From: Planktomarina sp.
GTDB taxonomy: Bacteria; Pseudomonadota; Alphaproteobacteria; Rhodobacterales; Rhodobacteraceae
NCBI GenBank assembly: GCA_020630595.1
Contig: JAHDBC010000005.1
Coordinates: forward strand, 1-64,000
Reading direction: 5' to 3'
DNA length: 64,000 nt
Shown: positions 327-19,820 of the stretch, one piece after another
How the letters are laid out: each line of letters begins with the position of its first letter
Position numbering within the stretch: the stretch's first letter is position 1
Made by a program: the position numbers and the translations under genes
Notes under the pieces: model-generated
What the model was told of the DNA's origin: nothing
Databases searched by the model: none
What the model saw: only the letters and a program-made list of their open reading frames with translations

Positions 327-344
327 CTTTTGTGTCCTTCAAGA

Positions 345-373
345 AAAAGGCGGCCCCGAAAGGGGACCGCCGG
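345..373 (-). terminator. Rho-independent terminator downstream of BCCT gene
   Basis: GGCGGcCCCgaaagGGgaCCGCC hairpin (349-371) followed on the minus strand by a T-tract (aaaaa on plus). Confidence 0.7.
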
Positions 374-391
374 ATTGATGTATTTGCAGGG

Positions 392-2050
392 TTATTCTGC
401 CGGTGTGCTGGCAGTGGTTGACGCCACGCCCGCCTTTTCGCGTTGCCCATCCCGGTAGACGGCCTTCAGCAGGCTAAAGCACATCAGCACCATCACCAGA
501 CTAAAGGGCAGGGCGCCGATAACCATCGCGGTCTGGATCGCCGTGATCCCACCGACCAGCAACAGTGCCGCCACAACCGCACCAAGTGCGGCACCCCAGA
601 ACAGGATGTGGGGGCGGGCCTTGGGGCCTTCGTCGCCAGCGGCGTTGATCGTGTTGACGATCAGCACGGCAGAGTCAGCCGATGTCACCAGATAGGTCAT
701 CAACAAGACCACGATCAGCACAGACATCAGCCATGCCAGAACCTTGCCACCCAGCAGGATGGACGTCATCGCAAAGATCTTGTCGCCATCGGATGTTTCG
801 TTGATGGCACCACCGGCCACGCCGGACAGTTCCAGATCAATCGCTGTGCCACCGGCCCATGCGAACCAGACAAAGCACATGATCGATGGCACGATCATCG
901 CACCCAGAACAAATTCCCGCACGCTGCGCCCTTTGGAAATACGCGCCAAGAACACGCCAACGAATGGCGCAAACGCAACCCACCACGCCCAATAGAAGAC
1001 GGACCAAGCGCCCTGCCATCCGGCCAGCGCATCGCCTGTTTCCGTGCCATCCGGGCGGAATACTTCAAATGACAGGCGTGGCAGGGCGATCAGATAATCC
1101 CAGATGCCGATAAAGAACGCCTTGGTGCCAAAGAACGTGGACCCGAAGATGATCAGGAAACCCAGCAGGAAAATCGACAGGGCCATATTGATGTTGGACA
1201 GCCATTTGATGCCTTTGCCCACACCCGAAAGGGCCGACAGGGTCGATGCCCCCATGATCACAAGGATTGCGAAAATGATGCCAACGCTGGATGGGTTGCC
1301 ATCGGCCGCGGTCAGCCAATCGCCAATACCAATACGCGACAAACCAGCCACGAATTGGTTGACCCCAAAGCCCAGTGTCTGTGCCACGCCCAGGATCGTT
1401 GCCACAACAGCCACGATGTCGATGATGTGCCCCAACGGGCCGGACAGGGTTTTGCCAAACAGCGGCGTCAACGCGGACCGCACCGTCAGTGGCAGGTCAC
1501 GGCGATAGGCGAAATAGGCCAATGCAAGCCCAACAATCGCGTAACAGGCCCACGCACCCAAACCCCAGTGCAGGTTCGAATAGACGTAAGCGTTGCGGAT
1601 GTTGTCTGCCGTGCCACCCGTGGCAAGCCCCTGAATGGTTTCTGGGTTTTTGCCGAAATGATAGATGGGTTCAGCAACCGACCACGTCAGCATGCCCACA
1701 CCAATCCCGGCACCAAACATCATGGAAAACCAGGAAAAGTTTGAAAATTCAGGCTTTTCACCCGGCAGGCCCAGATACAGGCGGCCCGACGCGGGCCAGA
1801 TCGCCAAGACAATACATACAATCACAAAGAACGCGACGGACCAGATGTACCAGCTGGCAAAATTGGTCAGGATGAAACTGTTGATCCCAGACAGGACAGC
1901 GCCCGCTTGGGTCGGAAAGATCACGGCCCACAACACCAAAAGTGAAATGATGATTTTGGAGGTGATGGCAACGAACTTCGAAAAGCCCGAATAAAACCCT
2001 TCGTCTGCCGTTTCAATCGGCAGATCCGTCAGGGGTGGTTGGATAGACAT
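392..2050 (-). CDS. BCCT family (betaine/choline/carnitine) transporter
   Basis: ORF 392..2116 with likely start at MSIQPPLTD; multi-TM protein with typical BCCT segments (GAGIGVGMLTWSVAEP, WWVAFAPFVGVFLARISKGRSVREF). Confidence 0.93.
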   Translation of the reverse strand: MSIQPPLTDLPIETADEGFYSGFSKFVAITSKIIISLLVLWAVIFPTQAGAVLSGINSFILTNFASWYIWSVAFFVIVCIVLAIWPASGRLYLGLPGEKPEFSNFSWFSMMFGAGIGVGMLTWSVAEPIYHFGKNPETIQGLATGGTADNIRNAYVYSNLHWGLGAWACYAIVGLALAYFAYRRDLPLTVRSALTPLFGKTLSGPLGHIIDIVAVVATILGVAQTLGFGVNQFVAGLSRIGIGDWLTAADGNPSSVGIIFAILVIMGASTLSALSGVGKGIKWLSNINMALSIFLLGFLIIFGSTFFGTKAFFIGIWDYLIALPRLSFEVFRPDGTETGDALAGWQGAWSVFYWAWWVAFAPFVGVFLARISKGRSVREFVLGAMIVPSIMCFVWFAWAGGTAIDLELSGVAGGAINETSDGDKIFAMTSILLGGKVLAWLMSVLIVVLLMTYLVTSADSAVLIVNTINAAGDEGPKARPHILFWGAALGAVVAALLLVGGITAIQTAMVIGALPFSLVMVLMCFSLLKAVYRDGQREKAGVASTTASTPAE

Positions 2051-2224
2051 ATCGTTCCCTTTTCGATTGGGCCTGTTTTTGTTGTGCGGTGTCCCATTGG
2101 CCCTTATCGCGGACATCGCGTTGGCAGTTTTCTGCTATTGTCTTGTCAGGCTACTGTGCCTGACGCGATTGTCAAAGGGGCTGCTGATCCGTTGTGGTTG
2201 TGACGTTGGATCAAATGTTTGGCG

Positions 2225-3670
2225 TCAGCCGCCCAATTTGATGGCGATGTTTTTTGTTTGGACGTAATTCCAAAGGGCCTCGCGCCCCTTTTCGCGGCCA
2301 TAGCCAGATTGCCCATAGCCCCCAAACGGTGTTTCCACGCCCCCGGCATACCATTCGTTGACAAACACCTGCCCCGCCCGAATGCGCTGCGCGTCGCGCA
2401 TGGCCTGATCGATGTTCTGGGTGAACGTGCCACCGACCAGCCCATAGGGTGTGCCGTTGGCGATTTCGATGGCTTGGTCCGGTGTTTTGAACGACATGAC
2501 CGAAACAACCGGGCCAAAGATTTCTTCCTGTGCGACGGTCATGCCCGGTTGCACATCTGACAAGACTGTTGGTTCCAGAAACGCACCGGGGCGGTTCAGC
2601 TTGTGGCCCCCTGTGACCAGTGTCGCGCCTTGGGCTTGCGCATCGGCGACCATCGCAACGGCACGGTCCCGCTGTGCGTCACTGACCATCGCGCCCATGT
2701 TTGCGCCGAAGTCCGGGCGTTCGATCCCGGGGCCAACAGACAGGGATTTGGCAAGTGTGCTGACCCGTTCGACCAGTTCATCCTTGCGGTCTTCGTGCAC
2801 GATGATGCGCGACATCGCAGAACACACCTGACCGGCATTGAAATAGATGCCCCAGCGCACATTGTCGGTAAACGCATCCAGATCGGCGTCGCGATGGACA
2901 ATTGCACCCGATTTGCCGCCCAGTTCCAGCACACAAGGCACCACATTTTGTGCGGCGGCGGTTGCGATGATCTTGCCGGTTTGCACCGATCCCGTGAACA
3001 CGATCTGGCGCACATCGGGGTGGGCGGTCAGGGCGGCACCGGCTTCGTGGCCATAGCCGCACAGAATGTTGACGGCACCTTTGGGCAGGCCCGCGGCTTC
3101 GGCGGCATGGGCAAAGATATAGCAGCTGATTGGGGTGAGTTCGGGGGTTTTGATCACCACGGTATTGGCTGTGGCCAGCGCTGCCGACAGCGACCGGGCT
3201 GTCATTTCCACGGGGTAGTTCCACGGAATAACATGGGCTGATACGCCAAAGGGTTCATAGGCCGTGAAATCGTAATAGGCAGCCCCCAACGGAATGGACC
3301 GGCCTTCTACCGTTTCGGCCTGATTGCCGTAGTATTCGAAATACCGCGCAGACCCTTCCAATTCGATCCGCGCCTCCCACAGGGGTTTGCCCTGTTCTAA
3401 CGTCAGAATTTCGGCCAGCGTGTCGATGTGGTCCAAAATATAGCGCCCCATGGCCTGCACCATGCGGCCCCGTTCCACTGGGCGCAGGGACGACAGCGCC
3501 CCGCTTTCGTGCACCCGTTTGGCCGCTGCCACAGCGCGCGCGACGTCACCGGCATCGGCCAAGGCATGTTGGGCCAGCGTTTCACCGGTGCCGGGGTTGA
3601 TCACATCGATCCGCCCTGCGCCGCCATCGACCCAAGCGCCGTCGATGTAATTCTGATAGTAGCTTTGCAT
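2225..3670 (-). CDS. NAD(P)-dependent aldehyde dehydrogenase (betaine-aldehyde-dehydrogenase-like)
   Basis: VIPWNYP, FTGSVQTGK, LELGGKSGAIV, FNAGQVCSAMSR motifs; start at MQSYYQNYIDGAW. Confidence 0.93.
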   Translation of the reverse strand: MQSYYQNYIDGAWVDGGAGRIDVINPGTGETLAQHALADAGDVARAVAAAKRVHESGALSSLRPVERGRMVQAMGRYILDHIDTLAEILTLEQGKPLWEARIELEGSARYFEYYGNQAETVEGRSIPLGAAYYDFTAYEPFGVSAHVIPWNYPVEMTARSLSAALATANTVVIKTPELTPISCYIFAHAAEAAGLPKGAVNILCGYGHEAGAALTAHPDVRQIVFTGSVQTGKIIATAAAQNVVPCVLELGGKSGAIVHRDADLDAFTDNVRWGIYFNAGQVCSAMSRIIVHEDRKDELVERVSTLAKSLSVGPGIERPDFGANMGAMVSDAQRDRAVAMVADAQAQGATLVTGGHKLNRPGAFLEPTVLSDVQPGMTVAQEEIFGPVVSVMSFKTPDQAIEIANGTPYGLVGGTFTQNIDQAMRDAQRIRAGQVFVNEWYAGGVETPFGGYGQSGYGREKGREALWNYVQTKNIAIKLGG

Positions 3671-3674
3671 GGGG

Positions 3675-4418
3675 TCAGTCCTTGGTGATGCGGTGGGCGT
3701 ACAGTCGATCATAATGCGGCTTCATCCGGCGGTGCACCTGCTGGACGCGGGGCGGTGCGTCTGAAACCTCTACGTATTTGCGGGGCTGGGGTGTCAGCCC
3801 GGTGGATTGCGCAAGGTTATGGTGAAACGATCCGCCATCCCACCAACTGTGTTCTGATGGATCGCCGCCCGGTGCCCATGACAAGGCGCTTTCGATGAAC
3901 GGAATGCCGACGCTGTCACAGAATTTTGCGACCATCGTATGGGGGTCTTCCAGCAGATCATCGCTGTCAAACACAGGCGGCGGGGTGCCGTTCAGCGCCC
4001 ACAAAAGATCGAACAAGGCGCGTTGTTCGGGAAAGCCCACTTCGCCTTCGTCGAAGTCCGGCCATTTGTTGTACATGCTGGAAATGGTTTTGGCCGGGTC
4101 GCGGATCAAAAACGCATGGGTGAAATGCGACAGGAAGTCTGCATCCCACATGTGGTTGATGTAGTGGGGGAAGTCTTTCAAAAAGACGGGCCCTTTTTCC
4201 GCCCGCGCCTGAATGTCGGCCCAGACGCTGTCCAATGTCAGCCCGGCGGTGGTTTTTTCACCGGGTTTGAACCGCTGCCACAGCGGATCTTCGCCCTGAT
4301 ACCATGCTTCGCCGAACGGTTCATGCAGGCAATCCAGATCGCCACGTTGGCGCATCATCCATTCAAAGGCGGTCGACGTGGACCGGGGCACTGCCCAAAG
4401 AGCGATGATCTTATGCAT
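3675..4418 (-). CDS. sulfotransferase-like P-loop protein
   Basis: N-terminal MHKIIALWAVPRSTSTAFEWMM (5'-PSB-like P-loop) and downstream FLIRDPAKTISSMY (3'-PB-like) are typical of the sulfotransferase family. Confidence 0.75.
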   Translation of the reverse strand: MHKIIALWAVPRSTSTAFEWMMRQRGDLDCLHEPFGEAWYQGEDPLWQRFKPGEKTTAGLTLDSVWADIQARAEKGPVFLKDFPHYINHMWDADFLSHFTHAFLIRDPAKTISSMYNKWPDFDEGEVGFPEQRALFDLLWALNGTPPPVFDSDDLLEDPHTMVAKFCDSVGIPFIESALSWAPGGDPSEHSWWDGGSFHHNLAQSTGLTPQPRKYVEVSDAPPRVQQVHRRMKPHYDRLYAHRITKD

Positions 4419-5238
4419 GTTGAACGCCTTTCAATAGGGTGCCGTGATCCCCGATGGGACCAATGCCAAGGGATTTGTAGATACGCCAATAAAGGGCCGT
4501 ATCGTGACCCACCACGGGTTTGCCCAATGCCTGTTCCAGCATCGGCGTCAGGTGCAGCGGGCGTTGGGGCAGGCCATCCGGTCCGCTGCGGAAATTGCAC
4601 ATGCCATTGATCAGATAGGCGTCTGCGTCAGGGGCTTGATCAGCCACGTATTCAAAGGATTTAAGGGCAAGATCGCCGTCAAAGACCCAGCGCAGATCGT
4701 TGACAGCGTCTTGGCTGTCAAACCAGCCTTGGTCGTGAAAATTCCCGGCCCATAGGACGTCAAATCCTGCCTCTTTCAGGAACCCGACCGTGCCCTGCCA
4801 CCACGCGGGCCAATGGTAGGCCGCATTCAGCGCGACCTTTTCCACGTTCAATTCGCGCAAGGCTTCCACCATGGCATAGCCTGCCATGTGGAAGTTCAGC
4901 CCGTATCTATCCGACAGGTCCGCACAGTGTTGGCGAATGCCTTCGACGCCCAATTCGCTGGCATGCACCCAGTTCGACCCGACTTGTGCCGCCACATCGC
5001 AGCCATTGCGGGACATTGCGTGGCAGAAATCATCCATCATGCCGAAATTCTGTTTTCGCTGATCCAACCCATGGGCATAGTCGGGGACATGCAGCATCCA
5101 GCCATGCACCCCGACGGTGTCAGGCGACATGCGCAGGAAATCTGACGGGGCGGCGTCGTAGTCAAACGGGGGGCAGGTAAAGCCCACTTGGTGCGCGAAC
5201 AGTTTGTGTTCGGGCCGCCATGTTTCCGGCATCAGCAT
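4411..5238 (-). CDS. arylmalonate decarboxylase / maleate cis-trans isomerase (Asp/Glu racemase superfamily)-like protein
   Basis: C-terminal pattern INGMCNFRSGPD...PMLEQALGKPVVGHDTALYWRIYKSLGI matches the second half of the family (Cys followed by 'LE..LGKPVV.....A..W'). Confidence 0.65.
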   Translation of the reverse strand: MLMPETWRPEHKLFAHQVGFTCPPFDYDAAPSDFLRMSPDTVGVHGWMLHVPDYAHGLDQRKQNFGMMDDFCHAMSRNGCDVAAQVGSNWVHASELGVEGIRQHCADLSDRYGLNFHMAGYAMVEALRELNVEKVALNAAYHWPAWWQGTVGFLKEAGFDVLWAGNFHDQGWFDSQDAVNDLRWVFDGDLALKSFEYVADQAPDADAYLINGMCNFRSGPDGLPQRPLHLTPMLEQALGKPVVGHDTALYWRIYKSLGIGPIGDHGTLLKGVQHA

Positions 5239-5307
5239 GGATGTTTCCTTTCAACGGTGTGCCCACCCGCCGCCCTTCTGCGGCGTTCCGCCTTGAACCA
5301 AAGGGGG

Positions 5308-5374
5308 CCGCGCCCTGACGGGCGCGGTGCCTCCGGCGGGAGTGTATGGGGCAAAATGAAGATCATGGGGCGGA
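5308..5374. repeat. hairpin plus conserved intergenic motif (copy A)
   Basis: Perfect CCGCGCCC-tgac-GGGCGCGG stem-loop, then CCTCCGGCGGGAGTGTATGGGGCAAAATGAAGATCATGGGGCG; related to 18634-18693. Confidence 0.6.
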
Positions 5375-5755
5375 CGCGGGATGACGGGGCAGCGCGTCGT
5401 TCAGATGAAGCCATGGCAAGGCTTCGGCGTGGTGGCAATGCAGATCCGGTGTGTAGGCTGCCGGATCGTCGAGCGAGGCTGCGTAAAGATGCAATTCGCC
5501 GGGCCAGCGGGTGCTTTCAAAGCTGAGTTGCGTGCCGCAGGTGGGGCAAAAGCTGCGTGTGGCGATATCTGACGAATTGAAGAACTGGCGGTCGCCCGTC
5601 CAGATGACACTGTCTTTTTCAAAGCCCATCCAAGCAACCACCGGGGCAGATGCTGCCCGACGGCAGCTTTCGCAATGGCAAAGTGCTGTCCATTTGGGTG
5701 CGGCTGGCGCAGCATAGCGGACTGCCCCACACAGGCAGCGGCCTGTTGTCTTCAT
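5363..5755 (-). CDS. GFA family protein (glutathione-dependent formaldehyde-activating-like, Zn-binding)
   Basis: MKTTGRCLCGAVRYAA...LCHCESCRRAASAP...SFCPTCGTQLSFES cysteine pattern. Confidence 0.9.
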   Translation of the reverse strand: MKTTGRCLCGAVRYAAPAAPKWTALCHCESCRRAASAPVVAWMGFEKDSVIWTGDRQFFNSSDIATRSFCPTCGTQLSFESTRWPGELHLYAASLDDPAAYTPDLHCHHAEALPWLHLNDALPRHPASAP

Positions 5756-6840
5756 TGCGCGGCCCCCCCGTCGACAGCGTCGCGCATCCAACGTTGCAAA
5801 TGCAGGATCGAATGTTCGGAATTCACGCCGCATTTCGGGTCAACCACCAGTGGCCCGGGCACATAGCCCCGTGATTTCAGGCCACGTTGTACGCTTTCGA
5901 CCAAGTGGATGTCTTCTTCGACCGTTGTTTCGCGGTCCTGGATGGCCAGTTTGCGGACGGTTTCAGATTCCGCCCCATCCACGGAATACCATCCGCGCCA
6001 GACGACCACGTGATCGGCGTCAATCGCCCGCCAATGGTATGTGTTCAGCACATTGCCGGGATAGACTTGGAACGAAAACATGGGCCACAGGAACCATGAT
6101 GAATATTCATTCCAATGGTCGAACCCGGAATGGATGTCATAGGTCATCGCGTCCAGATTTTGGCATTCCGTGCGGTGACGCAAGATTTTGCCTTCGGGCT
6201 GGATGTCATAGGTTTCGGGTTTCACAACGCCGGTCGCAAAGGTCGGGTGGTTCAGCGAACAGTGATAGCATTCCGAATAGTTTTCGACGCTGACCTTCCA
6301 ATTGCACCGTTCGGGGATTTCCACCCATTCCAGCGGTTTCAGGGCCGCCCAATTCGGTACCCATTGTTCCAATTCGGCACGTGCGTTTGGAAACCAGTCT
6401 TCCATCGGTTTGGCATTGGGGTCGAGGTTCACGAACACAAAGCCCAGAAATTCTTCGGTGCGCACACCCGTCAGGCAAATGTCTGCGGTGTTGAACCCTT
6501 CGACAGATTTCACATTTGGGCCTGCCCGCATTTGGCCGGTCAATTCATAGGTCCATGCATGATACGGGCAGACGACGACGCGGGTGTTGCCGGACCCCTG
6601 AACCAACTGATGCGCGCGGTGTTGGCAGACATTGTAGAATGTGCGGATCACGCCATCGCGACCCCGCACGCAAAACAGGCTTTCGCCCGCCAGATCAAAG
6701 GCGTGGTAATCCCCGGGGTTGGCAATGTCCGACACATGGCAGGCAAATTGCCATGTTTGCGACAGCACGCCCGTGCGTTCGATTTCGAACACCTGCGGGT
6801 CCGTATAGTATTTTGCGGCAAGGGATCGGGTCAGCGTCAT
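5752..6840 (-). CDS. Rieske non-heme iron oxygenase, alpha subunit (quaternary-ammonium oxygenase type)
   Basis: Rieske CQHRAHQLV...CPYHAW (CxH-CxxH) and catalytic ENYSECYHCSLNHP motif with bridging Glu. Confidence 0.92.
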   Translation of the reverse strand: MTLTRSLAAKYYTDPQVFEIERTGVLSQTWQFACHVSDIANPGDYHAFDLAGESLFCVRGRDGVIRTFYNVCQHRAHQLVQGSGNTRVVVCPYHAWTYELTGQMRAGPNVKSVEGFNTADICLTGVRTEEFLGFVFVNLDPNAKPMEDWFPNARAELEQWVPNWAALKPLEWVEIPERCNWKVSVENYSECYHCSLNHPTFATGVVKPETYDIQPEGKILRHRTECQNLDAMTYDIHSGFDHWNEYSSWFLWPMFSFQVYPGNVLNTYHWRAIDADHVVVWRGWYSVDGAESETVRKLAIQDRETTVEEDIHLVESVQRGLKSRGYVPGPLVVDPKCGVNSEHSILHLQRWMRDAVDGGAAQ

Positions 6841-7725
6841 CTAGGGATCCTCTGAATACAGGCCCATTTTCTGACGGCGGTCGTGGAACGCTTCGACACG
6901 GGCGACAATTTCTGGGCTTGAGACGGCAATCACAAACGACAGCAGCGTTTCCAAAACGGCGATGGTTGACACCGATGATGGGAAAAACTGCGGGGTGTCC
7001 GTGCTGATCACGATGCCCACATCCGCCGCACGAATGATCGGGCTGGCGGGGCTGTCAGACAGGGCGACAACCCGCATGCCTTGGTCTTTGGCCAAAGCGA
7101 CGGCTTCGACGACTTCGCGGCGGTAGGGTTTGCAGGTGATCGCGATCAATGCGTCCTGATCATCAGCCCAGACCAAATCGTCATAGGCGTTGCTGCCGGG
7201 GCGGGGAATGGCGTTGAAATCCACCATGCCGGTTGAGGCCAGATAGGTGAAATTCTGCGCGTTCGCAGCGTTCACTCCCACGCCCAAGGTATAGACCTTG
7301 CGGGCGGTCCAGATCAGCTGTGCGGCCCGGTGCAAATCATCGACGTCAATGCCCGCGAAGGTGTCTTCGATGTTTTGGATCGTGCTGCCGACCATATCGG
7401 CAAACAGCGTGCCCAAATCACCGCCCGATGCGATGGATTGCAGCCACCGGGCGCGGTCGGGAAAGCTGGCTGTGCCGTTGCGAATTTCTTCGCGGAAGGG
7501 GGCGCGGAAATCATCGTAACCTTCGAACCCCGCGTGACGCGCCATGCGCACCACAGTGTTGGGTTTGACCTTTGCCGCTTCGGCAATTTCGCGCACGGTG
7601 CTGACGCCCACGTCCTGAGGATTTTCCAGCACATAGGTTGCCGCCTTGCGGGTTTCGGGTGTCAGGTCCTGCAGCCCGTCGGCCAGCCGTTCCAGAATCG
7701 CGTTTGAATTATTTGTACCATCCAT
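6841..7725 (-). CDS. MurR/RpiR family transcriptional regulator (HTH-SIS)
   Basis: N-terminal HTH (TVREIAEAAKVKPNTVVRMARHAGFEGYDDFR) and SIS sugar-isomerase-like domain (YTLGVGVNAANAQNFTYLASTGM, IAITCKPYRREVVEAVALAKDQGMRVVALSDSPASPI). Confidence 0.93.
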   Translation of the reverse strand: MDGTNNSNAILERLADGLQDLTPETRKAATYVLENPQDVGVSTVREIAEAAKVKPNTVVRMARHAGFEGYDDFRAPFREEIRNGTASFPDRARWLQSIASGGDLGTLFADMVGSTIQNIEDTFAGIDVDDLHRAAQLIWTARKVYTLGVGVNAANAQNFTYLASTGMVDFNAIPRPGSNAYDDLVWADDQDALIAITCKPYRREVVEAVALAKDQGMRVVALSDSPASPIIRAADVGIVISTDTPQFFPSSVSTIAVLETLLSFVIAVSSPEIVARVEAFHDRRQKMGLYSEDP

Positions 7726-7741
7726 GATTGACGATGGTACA
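7714..7741. promoter_or_regulatory. candidate RpiR operator in divergent promoter region
   Basis: Perfect 9-bp inverted repeat TGTACCATC-catgattgac-GATGGTACA; left arm and spacer cover the first codons of the minus-strand regulator. Confidence 0.6.
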
Positions 7742-7795
7742 TTCGTTCGATTAGCCTGTCCAGCAACAACTGAGTCTTTTAAAAGGATGAACCCG

Positions 7796-10234
7796 ATGGC
7801 CGAACTGCCAAGCCATGCCCGCGTCGTGATTGTCGGGGGCGGTGTGATGGGGGTGGGTCTGGCCTACCATCTGGCCCACGAAGGCTGGGGGGCAGATACG
7901 GTCTTGCTTGAAAAGGCCGAATTGACCAGCGGGTCAACGTGGCACGCGGCAGGCCAGATCACCCATTCCACCAGTTCATTTTCGCTGGGCAAGTGCGTGG
8001 ATTATAACATTAATCTTTACTCAGGCGCGCTGGAACGCGAAACAGGCCAGGCGGTCACCTGGCATGGGTGCGGGTCGTTCCGTTTGGCCTATACTGACGA
8101 TGAAATGGATTGGTTGCGGCATACTTTGTCTGTCGGGCGGTCATTGGGGTTCAACATTGAATTGGTGGGGCCGGACCGGATCGCGGAACTGCATCCGTTC
8201 TACAATCTTGATGGTGTTCAGGGGGCGCTTCACACCCCGGATGATGGGCATGTGGACCCCACCAATGTGACGATGGCCATGGCCGCCGGGGCGCGGCAAA
8301 AGGGGGCCACCATCGTGCGCCACTGCCGGGCGACGAACATCACACAGGCCCCGAACGGCGAATGGGTGGTGGAAACCGAAAAGGGCACAATCACCTGCGA
8401 ACATGTGGTCAATGCCGGTGGCACCTATGCGCGGCAAATGGGGGAATGGTCGGGGCTTCAACTGCCCATGACATCGATGACGCACCATTATTTTGTCACT
8501 GAACCTGTGCCTGAATTCAATGACTTACAGGCCGAACTTCCAGTGATCCGGGACGACAGGAAGGTGTCCGGTTATATTCGCATGGAACAAAAGCGCGGGT
8601 TGATCGGGATCTATGAAAAGGAAAACCCCAACAGCGTGTGGCATGACCATTGCCCGTGGGAATATGAAAACTGGCTGTTTGATGCGGATTATGACCGGAT
8701 CATGCCGTATCTGGAAGAATCGCTGAACCGCATGCCCATCTTTGCAGATTTGGGCATTCAGCGCGAAGTGCATGGCGCGATTTCCCATCCGCCCGATGGC
8801 AACCCGTTGATCGGACCTGCGCCCGGGGTGCGGAACTATTGGTGTTGCTGCGGCACGCAGATTGGCATTGGCTGGGGGCCGGGCCTGACGCGCGAACTGG
8901 CGCGGTGGATGGTGCATGGGTCAGCCGATATTTCGATGCGCGATTATGACCCCCGTCGGTTTGGCGATTACGCCACGAAAGACTGGCAGGTGATCAAGGC
9001 TGAAGAAGATTATTGCCTGCGTCACGAAATCCCGTTTCCGCATTTCAACCGGCTGGCCGGGCGGCCGATCAAACCGTCACCACTTTACAACAGGTTAAAG
9101 GCGAAAGGTGCTGTTTTCGAAGAAGTTTTTGGTCACGAACGGCCCCGTTGGTTCGCGCCAGATGGGGTGCCAGCGGTCGATCAATATTCGTTCCGCCGCA
9201 ACGCCGTGCACGACATCGTGGGCGCGGAATGCCGTGCGGTCCGCGATGCGGTTGGCATCATGGACATCAGCGCGTTTACCAAGGTCCGCGTGTCAGGCCC
9301 CGATGCTGAAACGTTGCTGGATGGTCTGGTTGCGAACCGATTGCCCCAAAAGGTTGGTGGCATTGCGCTGACCCATTTTCTGAACCGCAAAGGTCGGATT
9401 GAACTGGAAACAACCGTGGTAAAGCTGGCTGATGACAGTTTCTATCTGGTCTGTGCTGCATTCTTTGAAAACCGGTTGATGGATCATCTGGCCCAGCATC
9501 GCGGGGATGCGGACGTCCTTATCGAATGTTTGTCCACCGATTGGGCGGCAATCACATTGAACGGTCCCCGGGCGCGGGATGTTCTGGCGGCCTGTACGGA
9601 AACCGCATTGGACAATGCGCAGTGGCGCTGGCTGTCCGCGCAGCAGATCGACCTTGCAGGGCACACGGTCTGGGCGTTCCGAATGTCGTATGCCGGGGAA
9701 CTGGGCTGGGAATTCCACATGCCGCAGGGCAGCGCCCTGGCTGTTTACGATGCGCTTTGGGCTGCGGGTGAACCCCACGGGATCACCGATTATGGATCGT
9801 TCGCCATGAACAGCCTGCGCATGGAAAAGATGTTCAAAGGCGCGGGCGAGCTGACGAATGAAGTCACCCTTGCCGAAGCAGACGTGTTGCGGTTTGCCAA
9901 ACAGGACAAAGACTATCTGGGCAAGGATCTGTCGTGGAACACGGACGATATGAAATGGGTCTGTGCCTATCTGGAAATTGAACCGGATGGCGTCGAAGAC
10001 GGACATGGTGGCGAAGCAATCGTGGTGGACGGTCAAGTGGTTGGGTCCACGGCGTCGGTGGCGTTTGGTCACACGACGGGCAAAATTCTGGCGTTCGCCT
10101 ATGTCCAGCCGCACGTGAATGCGCCCGGAACCGAGGTTGAGGTGATCATCGCAGGGGCGCCCCGCAAGGGGCGGATTTTGGATGCGCCGATTTACGATCC
10201 GGCCTCAGACAGGCCGCGGGCCGATGCATCCTGA
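7796..10234 (+). CDS. GcvT-family FAD-dependent oxidoreductase (dimethylglycine/sarcosine dehydrogenase-like)
   Basis: N-terminal FAD motif RVVIVGGGVMGVGLAYHLA, STWHAAGQ, and C-terminal GcvT-like folate domain (SAFTKVRVSGPDAETLLD...MSYAGELGWEFHMP). Start chosen at MAELPS by RBS spacing. Confidence 0.92.
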   Translation: MAELPSHARVVIVGGGVMGVGLAYHLAHEGWGADTVLLEKAELTSGSTWHAAGQITHSTSSFSLGKCVDYNINLYSGALERETGQAVTWHGCGSFRLAYTDDEMDWLRHTLSVGRSLGFNIELVGPDRIAELHPFYNLDGVQGALHTPDDGHVDPTNVTMAMAAGARQKGATIVRHCRATNITQAPNGEWVVETEKGTITCEHVVNAGGTYARQMGEWSGLQLPMTSMTHHYFVTEPVPEFNDLQAELPVIRDDRKVSGYIRMEQKRGLIGIYEKENPNSVWHDHCPWEYENWLFDADYDRIMPYLEESLNRMPIFADLGIQREVHGAISHPPDGNPLIGPAPGVRNYWCCCGTQIGIGWGPGLTRELARWMVHGSADISMRDYDPRRFGDYATKDWQVIKAEEDYCLRHEIPFPHFNRLAGRPIKPSPLYNRLKAKGAVFEEVFGHERPRWFAPDGVPAVDQYSFRRNAVHDIVGAECRAVRDAVGIMDISAFTKVRVSGPDAETLLDGLVANRLPQKVGGIALTHFLNRKGRIELETTVVKLADDSFYLVCAAFFENRLMDHLAQHRGDADVLIECLSTDWAAITLNGPRARDVLAACTETALDNAQWRWLSAQQIDLAGHTVWAFRMSYAGELGWEFHMPQGSALAVYDALWAAGEPHGITDYGSFAMNSLRMEKMFKGAGELTNEVTLAEADVLRFAKQDKDYLGKDLSWNTDDMKWVCAYLEIEPDGVEDGHGGEAIVVDGQVVGSTASVAFGHTTGKILAFAYVQPHVNAPGTEVEVIIAGAPRKGRILDAPIYDPASDRPRADAS

Positions 10235-10835
10235 TTTGACCCATTTGATGGCCGCCGCCACGGCACTGCATGCCGGTCATGCCGATTTGCGGGACTTTGT
10301 CGCCATGGGCAATGATCTGGTGGATGGCGACTATCAACGCCAAGACCATCCGGCACAGGCCGTAATGTGCGCACAACACTGGCCGGATGCGCGGCCCGGT
10401 GATCCGCTGGAATTGGCAACGGCGCTGCGCGATGCCTTTGTCGCGGCGGCACCGCTGGCCCAATGGCGCTATACCTATGAAGGGTCCAAAATTGATCCCG
10501 ATTTCATCGAACGGTTCGGCTGTTATTGCATGATCGGCAGCGGTGGATTCTGGTCCAGCGCGCAATTGTCAGGCTATGTGGTCTACATGCCGCCCGGCCT
10601 GCATTATCCGTGGCACCAGCACCCGGCAGAAGAAATGTACGTGATGCTGGCAGGGTCGGCGGAATTTCATCTGCAAGGACAGCCCCCCCAAACCCTTACG
10701 GCGGGGCAGGCCGTGTTTCACCCCAGCGGGGTGCCCCATGCGACCACCACCCACGATGACCCGATGATGGCCTATGTGACTTGGCGCAATCATCTGGATA
10801 TCGTGCCTGAATGGACAGATCCGGGGCTGCGCTGA
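10224..10835 (+). CDS. dddQ: DddQ-like dimethylsulfoniopropionate (DMSP) lyase, cupin
   Basis: YPWHQHPAEEMYVMLAGSAEFHLQG...VFHPSGVPHATTTHDDPMMAYVTWRNHLD: cupin core with the His/Glu/Tyr/His set of DddQ-type DMSP lyases; overlaps the stop of the upstream gene. Confidence 0.85.
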   Translation: MHPDLTHLMAAATALHAGHADLRDFVAMGNDLVDGDYQRQDHPAQAVMCAQHWPDARPGDPLELATALRDAFVAAAPLAQWRYTYEGSKIDPDFIERFGCYCMIGSGGFWSSAQLSGYVVYMPPGLHYPWHQHPAEEMYVMLAGSAEFHLQGQPPQTLTAGQAVFHPSGVPHATTTHDDPMMAYVTWRNHLDIVPEWTDPGLR

Positions 10836-10848
10836 TGGGGGGTATGGC

Positions 10849-11955
10849 ATGAAAATCACCCGCATCCGCGTGTTTCAAACCGGCTTGCCATATGTTGATG
10901 GCTTTTATGCTTGGGGTGCGGGCAACCGAATTGACGTTGCACAGGCATCGGTTGTGGTGATCGACACAGATGCAGGCCTGCAAGGCTGCGGGGAATTCAC
11001 CCCGTGCGGCGAAAACTATATGGTTGCCCACTCCGAAGGGGTGCCTGCCTTGGCGCGTTTGGTCGCGCCGCATCTGCTGGGCCAAGATCCGCGGCAGGTG
11101 GGTTTGATTGAACGCATTATGGATGGGGTGGTTCAGGGTCATGGCTATGCCAAGGCGCCGTTTGATGCAGCCTGTTGGGATATTCTGGGCCACGCGGCTG
11201 ACCAACCTGTTTGGATGCTGTTGGGGGGCAAGCTGTGTGATGGCGCACCCATGTACCGTGTCGCGCCACAGCGGCCCGTCGATGAAACGGTCGCAGAACT
11301 GCAGCGTCACCGCGCCAGCGGATACGGGCAGTTCCAGATCAAGGTGGGCGCGGATTGGGCCGAAGATATCGACCGCATTCGCGCCACCGTGCCGCTTTTG
11401 AAGCCGGGCGAAAAGGCGATGGCGGACGCCAATCAGGGCTGGCGGGTCGACAATGCGATCCGCGTCGCCCGGGCAACAGCCGATCTGGACTATATCCTGG
11501 AACAACCCTGTCAGACGTACGAAGAATGCCAACAGGTCCGGCGGGTCGCGCAACACCCGATGAAACTGGATGAATGCGTCACAGGCATCCAAATGGCGCA
11601 ACGCATTGTTGCCGACCGGGGTGCCGAAATCTGTTGTCTGAAAATTTCGAATCTGGGCGGATTGTCAAAGGCGCGTCGGGTGCGTGATTACCTGATCGAC
11701 AACCGCATCCCCGTGGTCGCCGAAGACACGTGGGGTGGGGAAATCACATCGGCCATAGTTGCACATTTTGCAACTTCGACGCCAAAAGATTACCTTCAGA
11801 ACAGCACAGACTTGATGAATTACAACACCCGGTCCACTGGGGTGGGTGGCCCATTGGTGCGGGATGGCAAGCTGTATGCCACCGATACGCCCGGCTTGGG
11901 CGTTGTGCCTGATTTCGAAAGCCTTGGCCCCCCGATTGCGGAGTATGCCCTATGA
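10849..11955 (+). CDS. enolase superfamily protein (mandelate racemase/muconate lactonizing enzyme family; HpbD-like subgroup), paralog 1
   Basis: FQIKVGADW, MADANQGW, LEQPC, MKLDE, LKISNLGG and AEDTWGGEITSA form an MLE-like barrel with Lys on strands 2 and 6. Confidence 0.9.
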   Translation: MKITRIRVFQTGLPYVDGFYAWGAGNRIDVAQASVVVIDTDAGLQGCGEFTPCGENYMVAHSEGVPALARLVAPHLLGQDPRQVGLIERIMDGVVQGHGYAKAPFDAACWDILGHAADQPVWMLLGGKLCDGAPMYRVAPQRPVDETVAELQRHRASGYGQFQIKVGADWAEDIDRIRATVPLLKPGEKAMADANQGWRVDNAIRVARATADLDYILEQPCQTYEECQQVRRVAQHPMKLDECVTGIQMAQRIVADRGAEICCLKISNLGGLSKARRVRDYLIDNRIPVVAEDTWGGEITSAIVAHFATSTPKDYLQNSTDLMNYNTRSTGVGGPLVRDGKLYATDTPGLGVVPDFESLGPPIAEYAL

Positions 11956-13058
11956 AGATCACACGCATCACGGTTTATCACGTCGATCTGCCGCTCGAAC
12001 ATCCTTATTGGCTGTCCGGTGGGCGGCTGAAATTCGAATGTCTGGACGCCACGCTGGTCAAGCTGGAAACGGATGCCGGCTTGACCGGCTGGGGCGAAGG
12101 CACACCATGGGGGCACACTTATGTGCCCGCCCATGGCCCCGGCATTCGCGCCGGGATTGAAACCATGGCGCCGTTCGTTCTGGGCCTTGATCCGCGACGG
12201 GTTCTGGATGTGGAACGGGCGATGGATCTGGCCTTGCCCGGTCATTTGTACGCCAAAAGCCCCATCGATATGGCCTGTTGGGATATTGCCGGGCAGGCCG
12301 CAGGGGTGCCGATTGCCGATTTGATGGGGGGCGGGTCACGTACGCCGCGCGCCATTGCGTCATCGGTTGGGGCAAAGACGATCGATGACACCCGCGCCGT
12401 GATGGACCGGTACCGCCAGCGCGGGTATGTCGCCCATTCGGTGAAAATCGGTGGGGACGTGGCCCGTGATATTGCCCGCATTCGCGATGTGGAAAGCATC
12501 CGCAAACCGGGTGAGATTGTCTTGTACGACGTGAACCGGGGCTGGACCCGGCAACAGGCGCTGCGGGTGATGCGTGCGACCGAAGATCTGCACGTGATGT
12601 TCGAACAACCCTGTGAAACGCTGGATGATATTGCCGCAATTCGGCCTTTGCATGCGGCCCCGGTCAGTGTCGATGAAACGCTTGTCACGTTGCAAGACGC
12701 CGCACGGATCGCCCGCGATGGTCTGGCAGAGGTATTCGGGATCAAGCTGAACCGCGTCGGCGGTTTGACCAAAGCCGCCCGCATGCGCGACATCGCACTG
12801 GCCCATGGGATTGATATGTTCGTGATGGCCACGGGCGGGTCCGTTTTGGCCGATACCGAAGCGCTGCATTTGGCGGCCACAATCCCCGATGCCAACTGCC
12901 ATGCCGTCTGGGCCTGCCAGGATATGCTGACTGTCGATATTGCGGGGGGGCGGGGCCCGCGCAACATCGATGGGCATCTGCATCTTCCCGAAGCCCCGGG
13001 TCTGGGCGTCGCCCCAGACGAAGGCGCGTTGGGTGATCCAGTCGCGGTCTACGTATGA
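11952..13058 (+). CDS. enolase superfamily protein (mandelate racemase/MLE family), paralog 2
   Basis: HSVKIGGD, LYDVNRGW, FEQPC, VSVDE, IKLNRVGG; overlaps previous stop by 4 nt. Confidence 0.9.
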   Translation: MKITRITVYHVDLPLEHPYWLSGGRLKFECLDATLVKLETDAGLTGWGEGTPWGHTYVPAHGPGIRAGIETMAPFVLGLDPRRVLDVERAMDLALPGHLYAKSPIDMACWDIAGQAAGVPIADLMGGGSRTPRAIASSVGAKTIDDTRAVMDRYRQRGYVAHSVKIGGDVARDIARIRDVESIRKPGEIVLYDVNRGWTRQQALRVMRATEDLHVMFEQPCETLDDIAAIRPLHAAPVSVDETLVTLQDAARIARDGLAEVFGIKLNRVGGLTKAARMRDIALAHGIDMFVMATGGSVLADTEALHLAATIPDANCHAVWACQDMLTVDIAGGRGPRNIDGHLHLPEAPGLGVAPDEGALGDPVAVYV

Positions 13059-13101
13059 CCACCCGCCCCACATTCATATGCCGGAACAAAGGGCCAGCCT
13101 G

Positions 13102-14457
13102 ATGGAATTTTCAAACGAATACCCAACCCACGACCCGGAATGGGTGCAGGACATGCACGCCAATCATTACCTGCAAAGCTGGTCGAAACAGGGGTCGCGT
13201 CCGCGTGTGATCACGGGGGGGCAGGGATCATGGTTTTGGGACAGTGATGGCAAACGGTATCTGGATTTCCAGTCGCAGCTGGTGAACCTGAACCTGGGTC
13301 ACCAACACCCCAAGATCGTTCAGGCGATCAAGGATCAGGCGGACAAGCTGTGCTATATCGGCCCCGCGATGGGATCAGATGTGCGGTCTGAACTGGCCGC
13401 GTTGATGACGCAGATCACGCCGCCGAATATCACATCCACATTCTTTACAACCGGTGGGTCAGCGGCCAATGAAACCGCGATCCGGCTGGCGCGGCATTAC
13501 ACCGGGCGGCACAAGATCATTGCCCGCTATCGCAGTTACCATGGGGCCACAGGGGGCGCGCTGTCCCTGACGGGGGACCCACGCCACCACCTGACACGGG
13601 GCGATATGCCGGGCGTCGTGCGCATGCAGGATCCATACTGTTATCGGTGCCCCATGGGCCACAGCGCCCCGGCCCATTGCCCCGTGTCGCAGGGGGGGCC
13701 GCATCTGGAACAGATTTTGCAGTTCGAAAACCCACAAACCGTGGCGGCGGTGATCATCGAACCCATTGTGGGCACCAACGGCATTCTGGTGCCGCCGGAT
13801 GGATACCTGCAATCCATCCGCGACACCTGCACCAAACACGGCATCCTTTTGATTGCGGATGAAGTGATGGCAGGCTTTGGGCGCACGGGGAAATGGTTTG
13901 GGATGGATCATTGGGGGGTGGAACCCGACATGATCGCATCGGCCAAAGGCATCAATTCCGGCTATGTGCCGCTGGGCACTTTGTCTGTGTCCAAACAGCT
14001 GGCCGATTGGTTGCAGGAGTATCCTTTCCCGGGTGGGCTGACCTATGCCGGGCATCCCTTGGCCTGTGCGTCAGGCGTGGCTGCGATCCGTGCGATGATG
14101 GAAGAAGGCACATTGGACCATGCCACCAAGATGGGTGAAAAAATGCGCGCTGAACTGGCGCGTATGGCAGACCGCCACCCCTGTATCGGCGATATTCGCG
14201 GCAAGGGCATGTTCAACGGCATCGAACTGGTCAAAGACCGCGATACCCGTGAACCGCTGGTGCCCTTTGCGGCCAAGGGTGCGGATGCGAAACCCATGAC
14301 AGACATGATGGGTTTTGCGATGGATCAGGGGCTGTACCTGTCGTTCTTTTCCAATGTGATCCGCCTGACGCCGCCACTGAACATCAGCGAAGACGATATG
14401 ATGACGGGTCTGGAAATACTCGACCGGACTTTAGACATTGCGGACAAAGCACGATGA
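13102..14457 (+). CDS. class III (omega) aminotransferase, aspartate aminotransferase family protein
   Basis: PLP fold: FFTTGGSAANETAIRLAR, YRSYHGAT, LLIADEVMAGFGRTG, SAKGINSGYVPLG; Cys-rich DPYCYRCPMGHSAPAHCPV segment. Alternative start at 13078. Confidence 0.9.
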   Translation: MEFSNEYPTHDPEWVQDMHANHYLQSWSKQGSRPRVITGGQGSWFWDSDGKRYLDFQSQLVNLNLGHQHPKIVQAIKDQADKLCYIGPAMGSDVRSELAALMTQITPPNITSTFFTTGGSAANETAIRLARHYTGRHKIIARYRSYHGATGGALSLTGDPRHHLTRGDMPGVVRMQDPYCYRCPMGHSAPAHCPVSQGGPHLEQILQFENPQTVAAVIIEPIVGTNGILVPPDGYLQSIRDTCTKHGILLIADEVMAGFGRTGKWFGMDHWGVEPDMIASAKGINSGYVPLGTLSVSKQLADWLQEYPFPGGLTYAGHPLACASGVAAIRAMMEEGTLDHATKMGEKMRAELARMADRHPCIGDIRGKGMFNGIELVKDRDTREPLVPFAAKGADAKPMTDMMGFAMDQGLYLSFFSNVIRLTPPLNISEDDMMTGLEILDRTLDIADKAR

Positions 14458-15557
14458 AGATCACCGGCATCACACTTTGGGAAATCCCGCTGACCAGCCA
14501 CGCGACCTATTACATGGCGGCGGGAAAAACCTGTGACACCGTGCTGACGGTCGTGTGCCGGCTGACAACTGACACAGGGCTGCAAGGCTGGGGAGAGGTG
14601 TGCCCAATCCCGCATTACCTGCCTGCCTTTGCCAAAGGTGTGGCCCCTGCGGTTCAGGAAATGGCGCCCCTGTTGCTGGGGGCCAACCCCGTGGGGCCAG
14701 AGGCGTTGATGGATCGGCTGAACGATTGGCTGATCGGGCATGACTATGCCAAATCCATGATCGACACGGCCCTGTGGGATCTGACGGCGCAGGCGGCGGG
14801 GCTGCCGCTTTATGCGCTGTTGGGCGGGCGGGCCGTGAAAGATATGCCGCTGTATCATTCGATCACCTGCGTGGAGCCCGACGAAATGGTGCGCATGGCG
14901 CGGGATGCGTTTGATCAGGGCATGCGGCAGTTTCAGTGCAAACTGGGCGCTGACGATGATTGGCAAGCAGATGTCGAACGCCTGACCAAAGTGCGCGATG
15001 CGGTGGGGCCGGGGCCATTGGTCTATGGCGATTGGAATTGCGGCGCAGACAAGCTGACGGCGACCCGTGTGGGCCGCGCGGTGGCACATCTGGATGTGAT
15101 GCTGGAACAACCTTGCCGCACCATCGAAGACTGCGCCCATGTTCGCCAGGCCACGGGGTTGGCGATGAAACAGGATGAAACGGCGCATGACACGGCGTCG
15201 CTGCTGAAAGCGTGGCAGATGGGCTGCATGGATGCCATGGCGCTGAAGCTTTCGAAATTCGGGGGCCTGTCCAAGGCGCGACAGGCACGGGATTTGTGCC
15301 TGCATCTGGGAACGAAACTGTGCGTTGAAGATACATGGGGGTCCGACATCACGACCTGTGCGGTGCTGCATCTGGCCGCCAGCACGCCCGCCCGGGCGGT
15401 GATGAACACCTGTGATTTGTCTGGCTATGTGGGTCCGCGCCTTGACGTCGGGGCACCTGTGCGGTCAAACGGGCGCATCGCGCCGCCGGATGGTGTGGGG
15501 CTGGGCGTTTCGCCTGATTTGGATGTGTTGGGGACCCCGGTTTTGGAGCTGGCATAG
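14454..15557 (+). CDS. enolase superfamily protein (mandelate racemase/MLE family), paralog 3
   Basis: FQCKLGADD, YGDWNCG, LEQPC, MKQDE, LKLSKFGG, VEDTWGSDITTC. Confidence 0.9.
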   Translation: MKITGITLWEIPLTSHATYYMAAGKTCDTVLTVVCRLTTDTGLQGWGEVCPIPHYLPAFAKGVAPAVQEMAPLLLGANPVGPEALMDRLNDWLIGHDYAKSMIDTALWDLTAQAAGLPLYALLGGRAVKDMPLYHSITCVEPDEMVRMARDAFDQGMRQFQCKLGADDDWQADVERLTKVRDAVGPGPLVYGDWNCGADKLTATRVGRAVAHLDVMLEQPCRTIEDCAHVRQATGLAMKQDETAHDTASLLKAWQMGCMDAMALKLSKFGGLSKARQARDLCLHLGTKLCVEDTWGSDITTCAVLHLAASTPARAVMNTCDLSGYVGPRLDVGAPVRSNGRIAPPDGVGLGVSPDLDVLGTPVLELA

Positions 15558-15575
15558 CCCCAGAAAGGGGCAGTG

Positions 15576-16781
15576 ATGGATCATCCGTTTTACGCAGATG
15601 CATTAAAGGCATTTCAGGCGGGGGTCGCGGCGGCGGATCCGTATAAGGCTGTGGCAGACCACATGCCGATGTTTGAACAACCGCCCCTTGTGATCGCTGT
15701 GGGCAAGGCCGCCATTCGCATGGCCCATGCGGCCCGCGATGCGCTGGGTGGTTTTGCGGATGCGATCATCGTCACGAACCCGGAAAATGCGACCGATGTG
15801 GCGGGGGCCACGGTCTTTGCGGCCGCCCATCCCGTGCCGGATTCCATTGGCATGGCCGCCGGTCAGGCCGTGATCGATGCGTTGCAAACGGCATCCCCCG
15901 GGCGGCCTGTCTTGTGTTTGATTTCGGGCGGGGGATCTGCGCTGTTGCCCGCACCGGTTGCGCCACTGACCTTGGCCGACAAGGCCGCAGTGAACGAAGC
16001 GTTGCTGGCCAGTGGTGCAGATATCGTGACCATGAACATGGTGCGCCAGCAATTGTCTGATCTGAAAGGCGGCGGGCTTTTGCGCCATGCCCAAGGGCCA
16101 GTGACGGCGCTGATCTTAAGCGATGTGATTGGCGATGACCTGCGGGCGATCGCCTCTGGCCCGACAGTGGGCCCGATTGGGTCGCGGTCTTCTGCCCGCG
16201 AAGCTTTGCGCGCCATGGGTGTTTGGGATGGGCTGCCTGCGTCGGTGATCGGCGTGCTGAGCCAGCCTGATCTGGACACGGAATGGCCAGATGCAACCAA
16301 TGTGCTGGTGGGATCGAATGCGATCAGCGTGGCCGCCATGGCGCGGGCCTTGCCCGACGCCACGCGCCACCACGCGCCCCTAGAGGGCAACGTGACAGAG
16401 GCCGCACCGTGGGTCGCGGCTTTGCCCAGCGGCACCCATGTGTTTGGCGGCGAAACCACCGTAACACTGACAGGCACGGGCAAAGGCGGGCGCAATCAGG
16501 ATCTTGCCCTGCGCGTCGCGCTGTTGGCCGAAGCGCAGGATTGGCAGGGCCCATGGCTGTATCTGCAAGGCGGCACGGATGGGCGCGACGGCCCCACGGA
16601 TGCAGCCGGCGGGGTTGTCCACGGTGGCACCTTGGCCGCGATCCGGGCGGCTGGGGTGGATCCCTTGGCGGCCCTGAACAACAATGATGCCTATACCGCA
16701 CTCAAAGCGGGGGATGCCTTGTTGATGACAGGGGGCACGGGCACAAATGTGGCCGACATCGGGGTTTTGATCCGGGGCTAA
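15576..16781 (+). CDS. glycerate kinase type-2 / DUF4147-MOFRL family protein (TtuD-like)
   Basis: AVGKAAIRMAHAA, LCLISGGGSALLPAP, MNMVRQQLSDLKGGGLL, GGETTVTLTGTGKGGRNQDLAL, GTDGRDGPTDAAGG. Confidence 0.93.
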   Translation: MDHPFYADALKAFQAGVAAADPYKAVADHMPMFEQPPLVIAVGKAAIRMAHAARDALGGFADAIIVTNPENATDVAGATVFAAAHPVPDSIGMAAGQAVIDALQTASPGRPVLCLISGGGSALLPAPVAPLTLADKAAVNEALLASGADIVTMNMVRQQLSDLKGGGLLRHAQGPVTALILSDVIGDDLRAIASGPTVGPIGSRSSAREALRAMGVWDGLPASVIGVLSQPDLDTEWPDATNVLVGSNAISVAAMARALPDATRHHAPLEGNVTEAAPWVAALPSGTHVFGGETTVTLTGTGKGGRNQDLALRVALLAEAQDWQGPWLYLQGGTDGRDGPTDAAGGVVHGGTLAAIRAAGVDPLAALNNNDAYTALKAGDALLMTGGTGTNVADIGVLIRG

Positions 16782-16792
16782 CGCGCGCGGGG

Positions 16793-18112
16793 TCAGCGAT
16801 CGACGGGCAACCCGCTGGGCACCGCGTCTGGGACCCCCAGACGGAACGCCCCTGCAGCGGCAGACACGCCGGTCAGACTGTTCAGGAATGCCTCCAGATC
16901 GGCGACGTCCGCATCGGTCAGACGCAAGGGCGTGATATCCAGCCGCGCGGCCTGACGGGCCATTTCACGCCGGTCAGATTGGATCACGAAATCGATCTTT
17001 TCCAACCAAGGGGCGGCGGGCAGTTTTGCATCATCGCGCGACCATGCGGCGCGGGTGCCAGCGGGATCCAGATGATGGCGGATCATGTCTTGCAACGTTG
17101 GATAGGCCCCGTTGTGGCCATAGGGCGCGGTCAGGGCCACATTGCGCAACATTGGCGTGCGGAAGCGGTACGCATCTTCCAACACATCGCTTTCCCCCAT
17201 GCGCCCCACATCGCGCGGGATCGGATCGAACCGCCGGGTGCGCCCCGGGCCAAAGGCAGGCAGGCCAAGGGCGTGGAAGGATTGATCGCTGAACAGCGCA
17301 CCCGAATGGCACGTGCTGCACTGCCCCTTGCCAAAGAACAGATCCCGCCCCCGGTCGGCGTCATCGGGCAGGGGCGTGCCAGCCAGATAGGCGTCCCACG
17401 GGCTGTCAAAGCTTTGAAATTCCGAATTGATAAAGGCGGACAGGGCGGTTGCGATATGGGTGATGTCGACCTGTGTCGGATCGTCAATATCATCAAACGC
17501 GCCAACGAACATGTCGCCATATTCCGGGATCACACGCACCCGTTTTGCAATGATTGGCCATGCCGCATCGATCCGGTCGTGCACAGCGCCCGCAACTTCG
17601 TTTTCTTTGGGATTGCCGGCCATTTCAAACTGCGCGGTCATGGGAAACACCGCTTGTGCTGCGAGAATATTTGGCAGGCCCTGTGGCAGCCATTCTTCGG
17701 CAGGGGAATTGAACCCGTTTTGGTAAATATTCGAAACGGACAAACGCCCGTCATGGAACAAGACCGTGATGTCCCGGTGCCCCAGATTCCAAAGGGGCGG
17801 CGCATTGCGCGGGATGCGTTTGCGGATCGCATCATCGCCCAAACCGGCCATGCGCTGATCACCCAGGCCCGTGCCCCCTTCGCCAACGCCCAGCGACAGC
17901 CCGTCCCCGGTGCCAAGATCATGGTGGTGGCAGGTGCCGCAACTGATGTTTTGATTGCCCGACAGCACTTTGTCATAGAACAAAAGCTGGCCAATCGCCG
18001 CCTGATCCGGTTCAAAGGGATGGAAATCCTGCGGCCCCACGGCCAATGTGTCGGCGGCCACGGGGCTGGCGCAGAACAGCGAAAGGGCGAAGACGTGCGG
18101 ACGATACTTCAT
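16793..18112 (-). CDS. di-heme cytochrome c peroxidase / MauG family protein (secreted)
   Basis: Signal peptide MKYRPHVFALSLFCASPVAAD; two heme motifs (CGTCHHH, CSTCHSG). Confidence 0.92.
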   Translation of the reverse strand: MKYRPHVFALSLFCASPVAADTLAVGPQDFHPFEPDQAAIGQLLFYDKVLSGNQNISCGTCHHHDLGTGDGLSLGVGEGGTGLGDQRMAGLGDDAIRKRIPRNAPPLWNLGHRDITVLFHDGRLSVSNIYQNGFNSPAEEWLPQGLPNILAAQAVFPMTAQFEMAGNPKENEVAGAVHDRIDAAWPIIAKRVRVIPEYGDMFVGAFDDIDDPTQVDITHIATALSAFINSEFQSFDSPWDAYLAGTPLPDDADRGRDLFFGKGQCSTCHSGALFSDQSFHALGLPAFGPGRTRRFDPIPRDVGRMGESDVLEDAYRFRTPMLRNVALTAPYGHNGAYPTLQDMIRHHLDPAGTRAAWSRDDAKLPAAPWLEKIDFVIQSDRREMARQAARLDITPLRLTDADVADLEAFLNSLTGVSAAAGAFRLGVPDAVPSGLPVDR

Positions 18113-18580: not shown

Positions 18581-18633
18581 CCGGTGCGGGCGTGCGCCCG
18601 CGCATGATGTTTTATGTTCGGGCCACATGGGCC

Positions 18634-19758: not shown

Positions 19759-19820
19759 CAGGATTCCCTTAAGCCCTGAAAGTGCATAACCTGTGTACAG
19801 CTGTCTGCGAAGGAGTTTGC

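Follow-up and report, generated by a model that had tools for sequence, protein, structure and literature searches.

The genes around a single RpiR-family regulator in a Planktomarina sp. contig belong to one conserved, singly regulated catabolic cluster that is found across marine roseobacters; this conclusion is well supported. The cluster probably takes apart methylated-nitrogen (betaine-type) osmolytes. At a probability of roughly 0.6, we read it as a pathway under RpiR control that breaks down N-methylated zwitterions, namely amino-acid betaines that are probably hydroxylated or chiral, and in which the DddQ-family cupin would be an accessory enzyme. A search of the open literature found no paper describing this gene set; the original dddQ paper may already draw part of the neighbourhood.

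The window is the whole 64,000-nucleotide stretch of DNA that was analysed. The cluster occupies its left end as follows.

1 to 326, minus strand: CMD (carboxymuconolactone decarboxylase/AhpD-type) gene, truncated at its 3' end where the contig stops
392 to 2116, minus strand: BCCT transporter (PF02028, 504 bits)
2225 to 3712, minus strand: aldehyde dehydrogenase, betaine-aldehyde-dehydrogenase-like (PF00171)
3675 to 4418, minus strand: sulfotransferase-like protein (PF19798, 77.3 bits)
4411 to 5238, minus strand: AMDase/Asp-Glu-racemase-like protein (PF17645, 27.2 bits, barely above the cut-off of 25.9 bits)
about 5363 to 5758, minus strand: GFA (formaldehyde-activating-like) protein (PF04828, 80 bits)
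5752 to 6840, minus strand: Rieske oxygenase with the group Va quaternary-ammonium signature (best PDB match CntA, 6Y8J)
6841 to 7725, minus strand: RpiR-family regulator (PF01418 and PF01380)
7726 to 7786, no strand assigned: putative divergent promoter/operator region with the conserved element GATTGACgAtGGTAcatnTGTnnnntTAgccTGTC
7787 to 10234, plus strand: DMGDH-like FAD/GcvT N-demethylase (DAO, FAO_M, GCV_T and GCV_T_C)
about 10224 to 10835, plus strand: DddQ-family cupin (PF16867, 66.3 against 27 bits; best PDB match DddQ, 5CU1)
10849 to 11955, plus strand: enolase 1 (ortholog of 2RDX, 82% identity)
11952 to 13058, plus strand: enolase 2 (ortholog of 3EEZ, 92% identity)
13102 to 14457, plus strand: class III aminotransferase (PF00202, 317 bits; start shortened to near 13102)
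14454 to 15557, plus strand: enolase 3 (near-core)
15573 to 16781, plus strand: glycerate 2-kinase-like protein (DUF4147 and MOFRL)

An earlier, sequence-only reading of this DNA had named fourteen of these genes, RpiR included; all are intact, correctly assigned and in the order that it gave, but it missed two standard members of the cluster, the MDR reductase and the CMD gene. The CMD gene, which is 85% identical to the cluster CMD gene (PF02627 on the homologue), begins at 326 and runs off the contig end, so the unit extends to base 1 of the window. The gene is carried on by contig C12, which shares a 38-base overlap with the left end of the window contig. Past this gene the pathway ends on C12, and NeuB-like and other sugar genes follow (ORFs read by eye, C12 positions 1 to 20000). 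The MDR reductase gene is not at its usual place after the demethylase in this genome; a 64% identical copy stands alone on contig C8. The GFA start was shortened to about 5758 because the longer ORF (start 5833) overlaps the Rieske gene, and a plausible ribosome-binding site precedes the demethylase start at 7787.

Several products fall below the cut-offs of the protein families whose names they suggest. The aldehyde dehydrogenase scores 418.9 bits against 668.6 for the betaine aldehyde dehydrogenase equivalog TIGR01804, the AMDase-like protein 19.7 against 225 for the arylmalonate decarboxylase equivalog NF052327, and the glycerate kinase-like protein, with both Pfam domains present, 175.8 against 550 for the glycerate 2-kinase equivalog NF041176. 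The description of the region as an island, in the sense of a mobile element, was rejected: GC content hardly varies (0.56-0.61) and the window contains no tRNA.

For comparison, 80 named loci were fetched with the demethylase profile alone as anchor; they come from many Rhodobacterales genera, Hyphomicrobiales, Kiloniellaceae, Pelagibius and bins labelled Gammaproteobacteria. Gene counts use the 59 loci in which the demethylase is flanked on each side by 7 kb or more; as these loci are related to one another, the frequencies are counts and not independent trials. The Rieske gene is present in 59/59 clusters, RpiR in 57/59, enolase 3 in 56/59 and a class III aminotransferase in 57/59 (54 of one type and three of the window's type). 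The MDR reductase is found in 50, the CMD gene in 47, enolase 2 in 44 and GFA in 10 of the 59. Optional modules are DddQ (31/59), enolase 1 (30/59, with MDR every time, 30/30), the aldehyde dehydrogenase (26/59) and the AMDase-like and sulfotransferase-like pair (19/59; paired in 19/19 and never alone). BCCT (2/59) and glycerate kinase (0/59) are local extras. The transporter had been taken as an integral part of the pathway and glycerate as its exit; these counts do not support the former, and the lack of glycerate kinase from all 59 clusters leaves the latter unsupported.

Gene order is nearly fixed in both arms, and the RpiR-side arm diverges from the DMGDH-side arm. With optional genes in brackets, the minus arm reads CMD-(BCCT)-(ALDH)-(SULF-AMDase)-(GFA)-Rieske-RpiR, and the plus arm reads DMGDH-(MDR)-(DddQ)-(enolase 4)-(enolase 1)-(enolase 2)-enolase 3-aminotransferase. 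The smallest version observed, on a short contig (L149), is Rieske-RpiR-DMGDH-aminotransferase. The window departs from the usual arrangement in the presence of BCCT and glycerate kinase, in the minority-type aminotransferase ahead of enolase 3, and in the location of MDR on C8. Because the order recurs in dozens of genomes of many genera, the neighbourhood is not due to chance. The sequence-only reading had named as grounds for its own rejection that homologous clusters rarely keep these genes together; the comparison checked this and did not refute the reading, as the order recurs in the 59 loci.

The DNA between rpiR and the demethylase gene is also conserved. The element GATTGACgAtGGTAcatnTGTnnnntTAgccTGTC is non-coding, begins directly beside the rpiR start codon and is kept in 33 non-redundant loci (thinned to <85% identity). 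A genome-wide search gave this one site only, even with up to 3 mismatches allowed. The natural reading is that this region holds a promoter and an operator shared by both arms. Together with the divergent gene order, the element bears out the earlier proposal of one co-regulated unit around RpiR. In this window an inverted repeat spans the rpiR start codon; it was rejected as an operator because one half is coding and relatives do not conserve it.

Residue columns of the Rieske oxygenase were compared in 77 clusters, using CntA numbering. Y203, E205, H208, H213 and D323 are conserved in 77/77. Group Va is defined by an aromatic residue at 203 and a bridging Glu at 205 (PMC7948474); every one of the 77 enzymes has Tyr 203 and Glu 205, which places them in this quaternary-ammonium group and agrees with the onium chemistry that had been proposed. 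Y203, the bridging E205 and the iron ligands are common to the carnitine monooxygenase CntA. However, the substrate pocket differs from that of CntA: the six carnitine-contacting residues other than Y203 are all replaced (Y225T, F258Y, N270Q, Y295R, Y315D and F319T), five of them uniformly across the 77 clusters and one in 76/77. Since the contacts are replaced and the replacements are shared, the substrate is probably different from carnitine and common to the clusters. A further difference from CntA is that the reductase gene is not alongside. No Rieske reductase gene is seen in the cluster, and a genome search found no PF00970 reductase in the draft genome, which has two Rieske oxygenase alpha subunits.

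The demethylase has the full-length DMGDH/DMGO architecture (DAO, FAO_M, GCV_T and GCV_T_C) and the flavin-His motif STWHAAG; both are shared over the full length with dimethylglycine dehydrogenase 5L46, its best PDB match (505 bits). In contrast to that enzyme, its partners in the cluster point to a substrate other than dimethylglycine. The best PDB match of the class III aminotransferase is taurine:2-oxoglutarate aminotransferase (6JIX, 373 bits).

The hydroxyproline/proline betaine (Hpb) pathway combines an enolase with Rieske and flavin demethylases that act on betaines. The cluster differs from it in that its Rieske enzyme belongs to group Va and not to the Stc2-like group Vb, and in the addition of the class III aminotransferase, MDR, DddQ and the AMDase/sulfotransferase pair. 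All three window enolases have both catalytic Lys and the three acidic metal ligands intact. These residues are kept in all enolase groups of the clusters; the sole exception is the first Lys, which is changed in a single enolase 2 sequence out of 54. The window enolases belong to the same subgroup as HpbD (4E8G, 4H2H) and are only 31-39% identical to 4E8G. HpbD W321 in 4E8G reportedly (Zhao et al. in 2013) makes a cation-pi contact to the ammonium group. The equivalent position is Trp in enolase 2 (54/54) and enolase 2b (7/7), Thr in enolase 1 and Cys in enolase 3; judged by this single pocket residue, the label HpbD-type, given earlier to these enzymes, is compatible with enolase 2 but not with enolases 1 and 3. 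For the latter two the nearest characterised enolase is the cis-3-hydroxyproline dehydratase c3HypDH (4MGG; 44% identity to enolase 1 and 39% to enolase 3), which has the same catalytic residues and shares with enolase 1 most of the pocket columns examined (Thr, Asp, Trp and Tyr). The three window enolases score 400.5, 320.8 and 323.6 bits, below the c3HypDH-type equivalog cut-off of 500. The nearest characterised relative, LhpJ, both epimerises and dehydrates (PMC5144071), so that either reaction is possible. On these comparisons the cluster is related to the Hpb and carnitine systems, and membership in either is putative at most. Among the pathways tested there is no match, and the earlier view that no single described pathway explains the set is upheld.

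In the proposed pathway, for which both the reaction order and every substrate are predicted, nitrogen would be removed stepwise by the core enzymes. The group Va Rieske oxygenase would attack the quaternary ammonium group, either taking off one methyl as formaldehyde or cleaving the C-N bond. The DMGDH-like FAD/GcvT enzyme would transfer further methyls to tetrahydrofolate, and the class III aminotransferase would take off the freed amine. The aldehyde dehydrogenase and the MDR reductase would then complete the processing of the carbon skeleton, with the carbonyl being oxidised after transamination. The enolases may admit different stereo- or hydroxyl isomers through alpha-proton chemistry (epimerisation or dehydration). 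DddQ, an optional accessory, would act as a lyase: by abstracting the alpha proton it would eliminate an onium group in the beta position. Some points count against this betaine pathway. Known group Va enzymes oxidise or cleave beside the nitrogen and do not N-demethylate (PMC7948474). Trimethylamine may therefore be lost already in the first step, in which case nothing would directly supply the DMGDH step. Nor do demethylation and transamination alone account for up to four enolases. In addition, the Rieske reductase is missing from the cluster, and the window does not have MDR in place.

DddQ is counted among the DMSP lyases that are abundant in the ocean, although its Km is in the tens of millimolar and there is doubt over its physiological substrate. 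By sequence the window protein belongs to the family, with PF16867 above the cut-off and Y142, H145, H147, E151, Y153 and H186 all present. It thus shares family, metal and catalytic residues with the known DMSP/DMSOP lyase but its identity to the nearest relatives is 49-60% in alignments that cover part or most of the protein, and its gene lies in a betaine-type cluster and not in a DMSP operon. In a tree, the window protein shares a well-supported clade with R. pomeroyi DddQ (5CU1, SPO1596). The DddQs encoded in the R. intermedia and R. arenilitoris clusters have 97% identity to R. lacuscaerulensis DddQ (5JSO), and in the R. nubinhibens cluster one gene, which adjoins a second DddQ, encodes precisely the solved DddQII (4B29). 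The 19 DddQ loci outside the cluster, which double as a negative control for the synteny method, have no recurrent neighbouring gene in common; the cluster is the only conserved genomic home of DddQ seen here. Tandem DddQ pairs (L107 13584-14779 and several other clusters) are drawn from two different clades of the family and are hence not recent duplicates.

It is improbable that the cluster primarily serves DMSP/DMSOP utilisation, with DddQ producing acrylate and DMS or DMSO, MDR and the aldehyde dehydrogenase processing acrylate, and the demethylase acting on sulfonium compounds. DddQ is a proven DMSP lyase, and most DddQ enzymes prefer DMSOP, with which they are more efficient (PMC10686828). 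DMSP induces dddQ in R. nubinhibens, and an R. pomeroyi dddQ mutant makes 97% less DMS (PMC5395565), so at least one DddQ truly cleaves DMSP; MDR is also present in most DddQ-bearing loci. Against this, the Km of DddQ for DMSP is 22 mM, and in R. nubinhibens loss of dddQ lowers DMS by 20% compared with 90% for dddP (PMC5395565); these values fit the doubt over DMSP as the real substrate. DMSP cleavage had been placed at the centre of the pathway, but DddQ occurs in only 31 of the 59 clusters, and the core persists in the 28 without it. We know of no role for an enolase in DMSP catabolism. A more specific form of the betaine reading is less likely than not: the cluster DddQ may have evolved as a betaine-type lyase and not for DMSP, in a previously unassigned pathway with a new group Va Rieske specificity and paralogous enolases. 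The substrates would then be N-methylated (hydroxy-)amino-acid betaines, and DMSP/DMSOP cleavage by cluster DddQs would be a side activity.

A known carnitine/gamma-butyrobetaine or choline route is similarly unlikely. An enolase would dehydrate carnitine, MDR would reduce crotonobetaine, the Rieske enzyme would convert gamma-butyrobetaine to trimethylamine and succinic semialdehyde, and the aldehyde dehydrogenase would yield succinate. MDR and the aldehyde dehydrogenase would fit, as would the group Va signature and carnitine monooxygenase as the nearest solved Rieske structure; however, the near-uniform change of the six carnitine contacts outside Y203 does not, and DMGDH and the aminotransferase are left unexplained. 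Glycine betaine demethylation by a GbcA/BmoA-like oxygenase and DMGDH, with a glycine/serine exit via hydroxypyruvate and glycerate, is very improbable. It would suit the DMGDH architecture, the glycerate kinase-like gene of the window and the probable sarcosine oxidase genes 30 kb away, but the Rieske enzyme has Tyr and not the group Vb Asn at 203 and scores 146.7 bits against the cut-off of 670 for the GbcA glycine betaine monooxygenase family NF058607, glycerate kinase is found in none of the 59 clusters, and the enolases are without a role. It is rather doubtful that the two arms and the inserted modules represent a number of small pathways which serve different osmolytes and share one regulator and a demethylation core. 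Units are indeed gained and lost between fixed core genes, as seen for DddQ, for the inseparable AMDase/sulfotransferase pair and for enolase 1 with MDR; against this stand the nearly fixed order, the one conserved regulatory element and the lack of a conserved context for DddQ outside the cluster.

As the only conserved context of DddQ seen here is a regulated betaine-type pathway, the doubt over its true substrate becomes a direct experiment. The cluster also gives orphan structures a common home and a testable function: 2RDX and 2QDD/3FVD correspond exactly to enolases 1 and 2b in the Roseovarius nubinhibens cluster, the same single cluster that holds 4B29, and 3EEZ likewise gains a context through enolase 2. 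If the betaine reading is true, it gives a name to a widespread but so far unassigned route by which marine roseobacters use the nitrogen and carbon of algal osmolytes.

Other features of the window and genome were observed in passing. Positions 46714-52084, approximately 30 kb from the cluster, hold a probable heterotetrameric sarcosine oxidase operon comprising SoxB-like, SoxA-like (1048 aa) and SoxG-like genes. The 2.74 Mb draft genome has 13 GcvT-type matches, an apparent expansion of folate-linked demethylases; one of them, on contig C42, is DmdA-like and lies just under the curated cut-off (369.6 against 410). At 18685-21185, a radical SAM protein adjoins a Memo-AMMECR1 fusion on the opposite strand, an AmmeMemoRadiSam-type set.
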